From Burkholderia ubonensis subsp. mesacidophila (GTDB lineage: Bacteria; Pseudomonadota; Gammaproteobacteria; Burkholderiales; Burkholderiaceae): a stretch of DNA of 64,000 bases. This document shows, one piece after another, positions 1,547-3,076 of this stretch. The notes beneath the pieces are model-generated. The model had not been told where the DNA came from, ran no database searches, and was given only the letters and a program-made list of their open reading frames with translations. Every line of letters begins with the position of its first letter. Within the stretch, counting starts at the first letter, position 1. A program made the translations under genes and the position numbers. Location: positions 2,976,001-3,040,000 of the forward strand of contig NZ_CP020737.1 of assembly GCF_002097715.1 (NCBI RefSeq), written 5' to 3'.

Positions 1547-3076
1547 ATGCATAAGACGAAACTGCCGTTCCGCGCGGCGGGACGGTGCTATCGCGCGACC
1601 TTGCTGGCCGCGGCCGCGTTCGCTTGCTGCTGCGGTTCGTATGCCGTCGCGCAGGAAGCAACGTCAATCGGACCCGTCGCCGGACAGTCCGGCGACGACA
1701 CTCCACCCTTCACCGCGCCATTGCAGGTCGCGCAGAACGCGATGCCCGACGGCGCGGACATCACGATGCCCGTTGCCGGACACGCAGCCGCGTGCGCCGC
1801 CGATCCGTCTGCGTGCGCGCCAGGCAAGTACGCCAGCGGCGGTGTCGGCGGCCACGGTGGCGCCGGCAGCGGAAGCGGCACCAGCCCGGGCAGCGGCAGC
1901 AGCGGGAGTAACGGAAACGGCGCCGTCGGGCCCGCAAGTGTCGGCGGAACGGTGGGCTCGACCACGGGCGGCACAACCGGCAATGGCCGCAGCAATGGCG
2001 GATCCGGCGGCGGGAGTTCGGGTGGCGGCACTTCGGGTGGCGGCACTTCGGGTGGCGGCACTACGGGTGGCAGTACTTCGGGTGGCGGCACTTCGGGCGG
2101 CGGCACTTCGGGTGGCGGCACTTCGGGTGGCGGTACTTCGGGTGGCGGTACTTCGGGTGGCGGCACTTCGGGTGGCGGCACTTCGGGCGGCGGCACTTCG
2201 GGTGGCGGCACTTCGGGTGGCGGCACTTCGGGTGGCGGCACTTCGGGTGGCGGTACTTCGGGTGGCGGTACTTCGGGTGGCGGTACTTCGGGTGGCGGCA
2301 ATTGCGGCTGTGGAGGCCACGGCGGACATGGTGGTCACGGCGGCGGCGGCAACGGCGGCGGCAACGGCGGCGGCGGCGGCAGCAGCGGCGGCGGCGGCGG
2401 CGGCGGCGGCGGCGGCAGCGGCAGCGGCAGCGGTGGTCACGGTAACGGCGGAGGCGGAGGCGGAGGCGGAGGTGCCGGTGGTGGTGCCGGTGGTGGTGCC
2501 GGTGGTGGTGCCGGTGGTGGTGCCGGTGGTGGTGCCGGTGGTGGTGCCGGCGGCGGCGCAGGCGGTGGTGCTGGCGGTGGTGCTGGCGGTGGTGCTGGCG
2601 GCGGCGCAGGCGGTGGTGCTGGCGGTGGTGCTGGCGGTGGTGCTGGCGGTGGTGCTGGCGGTGGTGCTGGCGGCGGTGCCGGCGGTGGTGCCGGCGGCGG
2701 CGCAGGCGGTGGTGCTGGCGGCGGCTCAGGCGGCGGCTCAGGCGGTGGTGCTGGCGGTGGTGCTGGCGGTGGTGCTGGCGGTGGTGCTGGCGGTGGTGCT
2801 GGCGGTGGTGCTGGCGGTGGTGCCGGCGGCGGCGCAGGCGGTGGTGCTGGCGGTGGTGCTGGCGGTGGTGCTGGCGGTGGTGCTGGCGGTGGTGCTGGCG
2901 GTGGTGCTGGCGGTCATGGCAACGGTGGCCACGGTAACGGCGGTCACGGCAACGGTGGCGGCAACGGCAATGGCAACGGCAGTGGCGGCGGCGGCAACGG
3001 TGGCGGCAACGGCGTCGGCAATGGCAACGGCACCGGCGGCCACGGCAACGGTGGGTCGGGCAGCCACGGCCACTGA
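1547..3076 (+). CDS. Secreted glycine-rich tandem-repeat protein
   Basis: A protein of about 509 aa with a clear Sec-type signal peptide (basic start, hydrophobic core rich in Ala/Cys, likely cleavage after SYAVA near residue 35). A short unique region follows (residues 36-150). Then come about 18 copies of the pentapeptide TSGGG (roughly 2026-2300), a Cys-bearing junction NCGCGG, a poly-Gly/Ser stretch, about 37 copies of GGGA (roughly 2470-2914, two changed to GGGS), and a His/Asn/Gly tail ending GSGSHGH. No hydrophobic anchor, LPXTG motif or autotransporter barrel is visible. GGGAGG at 1535-1540 fits the ATG at 1547 better than the one at 1544. It resembles structural, silk-like glycine-rich proteins. 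Function is unknown, and repeat number probably varies between strains. Confidence 0.75.
   Translation: MHKTKLPFRAAGRCYRATLLAAAAFACCCGSYAVAQEATSIGPVAGQSGDDTPPFTAPLQVAQNAMPDGADITMPVAGHAAACAADPSACAPGKYASGGVGGHGGAGSGSGTSPGSGSSGSNGNGAVGPASVGGTVGSTTGGTTGNGRSNGGSGGGSSGGGTSGGGTSGGGTTGGSTSGGGTSGGGTSGGGTSGGGTSGGGTSGGGTSGGGTSGGGTSGGGTSGGGTSGGGTSGGGTSGGGTSGGGTSGGGNCGCGGHGGHGGHGGGGNGGGNGGGGGSSGGGGGGGGGGSGSGSGGHGNGGGGGGGGGAGGGAGGGAGGGAGGGAGGGAGGGAGGGAGGGAGGGAGGGAGGGAGGGAGGGAGGGAGGGAGGGAGGGAGGGAGGGAGGGAGGGSGGGSGGGAGGGAGGGAGGGAGGGAGGGAGGGAGGGAGGGAGGGAGGGAGGGAGGGAGGGAGGHGNGGHGNGGHGNGGGNGNGNGSGGGGNGGGNGVGNGNGTGGHGNGGSGSHGH
2026..2300 (+). repeat. 15-bp coding minisatellite (TSGGG units)
   Basis: About 18 tandem 15-bp units of the type GGTGGCGGCACTTCG, with scattered third-position changes and one divergent unit (TTGGS) near 2060-2073. 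The unit length is a multiple of three, so copy-number change keeps the frame. Confidence 0.9.
2470..2914 (+). repeat. 12-bp coding minisatellite (GGGA units)
   Basis: About 37 tandem 12-bp units of the type GGCGGTGGTGCT. Sub-blocks with the same silent changes recur (GGTGGTGGTGCC early, GGCGGTGGTGCT later, interspersed GGCGGCGGCGCA), as expected from slippage or unequal exchange. Two units at about 2719-2742 encode GGGS. All six frames stay largely open through the block. Confidence 0.9.

Follow-up and report, generated by a model that had tools for sequence, protein, structure and literature searches.

A glycine-rich repeat gene of Burkholderia ubonensis subsp. mesacidophila most likely belongs to a matrix programme under a σ54 enhancer-binding protein. 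Its product is probably an exported, disordered polymer of the biofilm matrix or cell surface, co-regulated by σ54 and a VpsR-type activator. The gene was first noticed as an odd repeat reading frame in a 64,000-nucleotide stretch of the genome (contig NZ_CP020737.1, positions 2,976,001 to 3,040,000; hereafter the window), and the predicted σ54 matrix regulon that it appears to join extends across most of the genus. One promoter architecture links a VpsR-domain activator, a Fap-like fibre system, an NfrB-type glycosyltransferase and the glycine-rich polymer. We also raise, tentatively, the possibility of a silk-like matrix polymer of a single genus, with largely fixed ends, a fixed σ54/VpsR-type switch and a middle of two minisatellites that is rewritten in each species.

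The gene occupies 1547-3076 on the plus strand, as do all its parts, and encodes 509 amino acids plus the stop. An earlier note on this DNA had described a secreted-type protein with two glycine repeat blocks, a cysteine junction and a tail, and its coordinates, frame and blocks all hold. The putative Sec-type signal peptide (1547-1651) has a cleavage site, judged by eye, between AVA and Q; A35 and Q36 are invariant in 18 sequences. So are both members of a cysteine pair, C83-x6-C90 (1793-1816), in the linker between the signal peptide and array 1, and a C-x(4-8)-C pair is found in this N-terminal region in 34 of 34 sequences. Array 1 (2030-2299) comprises 18 units of 15 bp, 17 TSGGG and one TTGGS, and array 2 (2465-2908) comprises 37 units of 12 bp, 35 GGGA and two GGGS (Tandem Repeats Finder scores of 500 and 634). 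The NCGCGG junction (2300-2317) is not general: it is absent from most of the relatives listed, and one locus (L048) has SCGCGG. A Gly/His/Asn tail (2909-3073) carries a recurring C-terminal motif, GNGNGxGGxGNGGxNGVGNG, present in 21 of 27 closed genes. Glycine makes up 273 of the 473 residues from 37 to 509 (58%), and charged residues number eight; the two arrays contain neither lysine nor arginine. A ribosome-binding site, GGGAGG (1535-1540, plus strand), precedes the gene, with 1535-1539 identical in 34 of 34 loci. Of two in-frame ATG codons at the gene start, the second, at 1547, is the likelier start because some relatives retain that ATG only.

Searches of Pfam, NCBIfam, PHROGs and PDB sequences returned no match to the protein. 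AlphaFold2 did not yield a confident fold (mean pLDDT of 42.9 for the N-terminal part with 11 sequences and 30.8 for the whole chain alone), and the protein is apparently unfolded or disordered. Plant glycine-rich proteins and silks combine a signal peptide and short glycine-rich repeats with a structural role, and the proposal that this protein is an exported counterpart of them gains support from its predicted features. The likeness is one of general design, with no homology seen, and the Burkholderia protein is distinct in its TSGGG and GGGA units and its σ54 regulation. Mycobacterial PE_PGRS proteins pair a conserved head with a variable glycine-rich repeat region; both head and repeats differ here, and the lack of any Pfam match means that there is no PE domain.

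An open frame alone is poor proof of a gene at this locus, because a second frame is also open across the same stretch (638 aa). Gene status rests instead on conservation. As the note had proposed, homologues can be sought with the unique N-terminal region, and this region is present in 50 of 65 genus genomes. Purifying selection acts on both the signal peptide and the mature N-terminal part, the conservation of which had been put forward as a decisive point: the median pairwise dN/dS is 0.23 (526 pairs) and 0.34 (560 pairs), respectively, from 561 pairs of 34 sequences after dropping pairs with dS ≤ 0.05 or no value. A neutral minisatellite with a reading frame open by chance would account for the open second frame, the expansion of the arrays and the clean absence of the gene in several lineages, but it is highly improbable given these dN/dS values and the conservation of the signal peptide, cysteine pair, C-terminal motif, promoter and ribosome-binding site.

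Across the family, the N-terminus has matches in 44 of 349 genomes, 41 of them within the genus; the three outside it are weak (E 1.1e-4 to 4.3e-4), and we take them for generic signal peptides. Among named relatives, the closest one found is B. ubonensis LMG 20358 (L031), with 82% identity in the N-terminal part and 95% in the product of the neighbouring nicT gene. A divergent copy of the gene occurs in L030.

The glycine-rich gene is predicted to have its own σ54-type promoter. The -24/-12 element TGGCACG-N4-TCGCA (1362-1377, plus strand; TGGCACGGATCTCGCA) has the GG-N10-GC arrangement and scores 11 of 12 letters against the σ54 consensus. It is the only site in the window, on both strands, with at least 11 matching letters. 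Columns 1362-1368 are identical in 34 of 34 loci and 1373-1376 are conserved in 33-34. A palindrome, GTTTC-N6-GAAAC (1271-1286, plus strand), lies 75 nt before the promoter and is presumably an enhancer-binding (UAS) site. It is the sole one of its kind in the window; its half-sites are kept in 33-34 of the 34 aligned upstream regions and its middle six columns vary. The exact palindrome and the promoter occur together in 31 of 34 loci, separated by 74 nt in eight and 75 nt in 23; the loci that differ are L045, L055 and L030. A scan of 1150-3300 found no σ70 promoter and no intrinsic terminator.

A conserved leader of ~155 nt precedes the gene. Where transcription would be expected to start, it contains a near-palindrome (GCACGGCGGGCCCGCGTGC, 1388-1411, plus strand), each column of which is kept in 27-34 of 34 loci, and mostly in 32-34. 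A riboswitch or other structured leader was considered and set aside: Rfam gave no match at gathering thresholds or at E values up to 1, and covariation was weak, one of 29 predicted pairs showing a two-sided change (18 sequences with unequal ends).

The same palindrome at a fixed spacing is common to other promoters. In the window's own genome, a search that allowed one mismatch found seven distinct palindromes, and all seven have a σ54-like element downstream on one strand (the better-scoring of the two strands was taken per site). The gap is 74-76 nt at six of them, including the window, with 10-11 of 12 letters matching, and 85 nt at the seventh, with nine letters. With two sites of at least 10 letters per 127,968 window positions, the chance of such a site in a given 3-nt slot is ~1/20,000. 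Across the genus, the combined palindrome-promoter pattern has 142 matches in 61 of 65 genomes, and the reversed control has none. Although gaps of 60-88 nt were allowed, 138 of the 142, counted by eye, fall at 73-76 nt, and among 30 loci checked by script the gap is 74-76 nt in 29. The strict pattern finds 23 of the 34 promoters of the glycine-rich gene and thus undercounts, because it misses 11.

The targets recognised behind these promoters are mostly fibre-like or polysaccharide genes, and the biofilm link that the note had raised is now supported by this common architecture. At the 30 loci read, the target is the first gene of a Fap-like operon in 18, an NfrB-like glycosyltransferase in five and the glycine-rich gene in four; at three (L179, L185 and L198) no target was recognised. 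The Fap-like operon begins with a gene for a short, exported VTLWDE-motif protein. In the window's own genome (L166, C1:1155000-1161500), this gene opens an operon with matches to FapA (2.8e-10) and FapC (3.3e-17) and is divergent from a gene for an activator with VpsR, σ54-activation and Fis domains (C1:1158718-1160112). All FapA-like, FapC-like and FapD-like matches in this work lie below the curated cut-offs. The glycosyltransferase matches the model for c-di-GMP-activated NfrB at 2.2e-128, which is below the cut-off on a partial protein, and exceeds the cut-off of a related model. NfrB-like genes sit behind the palindrome and σ54 element in several species (for example L196:1881-3104 and L171:1920-3104). 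A second paralogue of the activator (64% identity) is encoded ~7 kb away from the Fap-like operon, at C1:1150653-1151975.

The predicted regulon includes members outside this theme. Among the own-genome sites, no clear matrix gene was found at L153, L167 and L170, and L169 has a LuxR-type response regulator. These members would fit a σ54-controlled exported protein with a role in stress, nitrogen or the envelope rather than in the matrix, yet fibre-like or polysaccharide genes at 23 of the 30 loci read, together with the four that hold the glycine-rich gene, make such a role decidedly unlikely.

Could the protein instead be an accessory of the Fap-like amyloid fibre, such as a nucleator, coat or export partner, and not a free matrix polymer? 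The two share a promoter architecture, and so does L168, where another exported glycine-rich protein is encoded beside a FapD-like peptidase. However, the gene stands alone and far from the Fap-like operon (C1:2977547 versus C1:1158213), NCBIfam detects no Fap-like repeat in its product, and it has been lost from genomes that keep both the activator and a UAS match (for example G005, G008 and G026). We consider an accessory role unlikely. The protein was also assessed as a Fap functional amyloid subunit, an assignment set aside on the absence of any NCBIfam match to FapB/FapC repeats. At L168 itself (L168:3286-5918, on C2 of the own genome), the glycine-rich gene is followed by the FapD-like C39 peptidase (1.7e-39); the palindrome there is of the GTTTCA form, and the σ54-like element 85 nt downstream makes this site the spacing outlier.

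Returning to a co-regulated matrix polymer, an orthologue of the activator (at least 73% identity) is present in 61 of 65 genomes and was not found in G066, G030, G033 and G029; the first three also have no UAS-promoter match. The exceptions are G073, with an activator and no match, and G029 (94% complete), with a match and no activator. The VpsR-domain activator beside the Fap-like operon is the most likely binder of the palindrome at 1271-1286. Once bound, it would switch on the promoter 75 nt downstream, probably at high c-di-GMP, and the glycine-rich gene would be transcribed from its own σ54 promoter. Its product would then be produced alongside Fap-like fibre proteins and an NfrB-type exopolysaccharide synthase, pass through the Sec system as a disordered polymer, cross the outer membrane and act, perhaps mechanically, at the cell surface or in the biofilm matrix.

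Two described circuits offer parallels. In B. cenocepacia, according to the portion available of the study, BerB is a c-di-GMP/σ54 enhancer-binding protein that drives matrix genes, and the berA promoter is driven by BerB, RpoN and c-di-GMP (PMC5552954). The BerB/RpoN/berA circuit resembles the present one in its enhancer-binding protein and link to biofilm, and the berA promoter shares the TGGCACG and TCGC core, whereas the berA product is a regulator, unlike a glycine-rich polymer (PMC5552954, same portion). Upstream of berA there is a related but non-identical element, GTGTCCGGAAATGAGAC, and GTTTC-N6-GAAAC is absent within 300 bp. We do not assign BerB as the activator, since berA has the promoter core without the exact palindrome. 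The berA element lies 76 nt before the σ54 element (L213), the spacing seen at the glycine-rich gene, and spans 97 to 77 nt before it in L213-L215; its start coincides with a primer for the BerB footprint fragment in the accessible part of the paper (PMC5552954).

The second parallel is BrfA, described in the available text as a c-di-GMP-sensing enhancer-binding protein for fap in P. fluorescens (PMC13101488). The common feature, probable for Burkholderia, is control of fibre genes by an enhancer-binding protein that senses c-di-GMP (PMC13101488). A 2013 survey, in the excerpt available, lists the B. cepacia complex as without fap genes (PMC3792158). The Fap-like operon reported here came to light through its promoter and falls below the cut-offs, and may thus be a diverged form to which such models are blind. 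In the accessible text of a paper on BerB and RpfR, glycine-rich, fap and nfrB genes are not mentioned (PMC9684580), and a full-text search of open papers, as far as their searchable text extends, found neither the regulon nor the glycine-rich protein described.

The two arrays differ in how clearly they record their own growth. The note had read the sub-block pattern of silent changes as a sign of recent expansion by slippage. In array 2 the unit types are indeed clustered (15 runs versus 24.3 expected, with 0 of 2000 shuffles that low), which supports local duplication. Array 1 shows no such clustering (11 runs versus 11.8; 834 of 2000 shuffles). The codons ACT, GGT and GCT, which are rare in five neighbouring genes (6%, 3% and 7%), are common in the arrays, as expected if a founder unit was amplified. 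Because every unit is a multiple of 3 bp long, slippage alters length and not frame.

Length was expected to vary between strains, and it does vary between close species; the genomes compared number a single one for each species, and several contigs stop within an array. In 20 of the 27 closed genes, array 1 spans 5-37 units and protein length 372-651 aa, although the way in which interrupted units are counted affects the figure (L041 has 25 or 30). Left out of this range are L043, L046 and L050, for frame breaks, and L029, L030, L047 and L049, for want of a long match to nicT in the set that was used; the last four encode proteins of 467, 272, 656 and 619 aa, respectively. Among the five pairs most alike in nicT DNA (97.2-98.1% identical), array 1 counts differ in four (22/25, 22/19, 25/22 and 22/23) and are equal in one (25/25); the pair with 22 versus 19 units is 97.8% identical in nicT. 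The unit of array 2 itself changes between species among the relatives listed, and repeat chemistries across species include GGGA, HGDGDGGGHGNGG, GGGN and poly-glycine. The ends of the protein (signal peptide, cysteine pair and C-terminal motif) would thus be largely fixed, with arrays amplified and re-typed in each species so that polymer length and side-chain chemistry are tuned. If so, the repeat chemistries form a series of natural variants of one material, and could reveal how repeat chemistry sets biofilm mechanics. The frame is broken inside the arrays in L032/L046 (G007), L050 (G001) and L043, through decay or assembly error, and the L043 array contains an undetermined base.

The gene is flanked by nicT (241-1257), its upstream neighbour in most loci, and by a convergent aldo-keto reductase gene (3105-4076, minus strand). 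A periplasmic nickel- or cobalt-binding protein that serves the adjacent NicT through its histidines would suit this position, and GGHGGHGG and histidine-containing arrays occur in many species among the relatives listed. Nonetheless, array 2 of the window has no histidine, the gene has its own promoter, and co-inheritance with an intact nicT was not found: G034, G006 and G067 have a decayed nicT alongside an open glycine-rich frame, and 12 genomes have nicT without the gene. Since the two are lost independently of each other, we see no functional tie to the nickel transporter, and regard a NicT partner as very unlikely. The gene appears as a dispensable unit served by a promoter of its own, being absent from 15 of 65 genomes. 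In the 12 with both neighbours, nicT and the reductase end 36-215 bp apart, versus 1468-2280 bp where the gene occurs and nicT is matched along its full length; the other three (G072, G030 and G033) lack a nicT next to the reductase. In a tree built from 44 reductase sequences, 15 of them from genomes without the gene, its presence requires eight changes, at least four of which are forced by well-supported branches, and the nearest row to the window (G031) is without it. The empty-site stretches between nicT and the reductase in L129 and L138 (G031 and G022) are 205-215 bp long and nearly identical, in genomes with NicT proteins 93% and 84% identical to that of the window, which suggests exchange between species.
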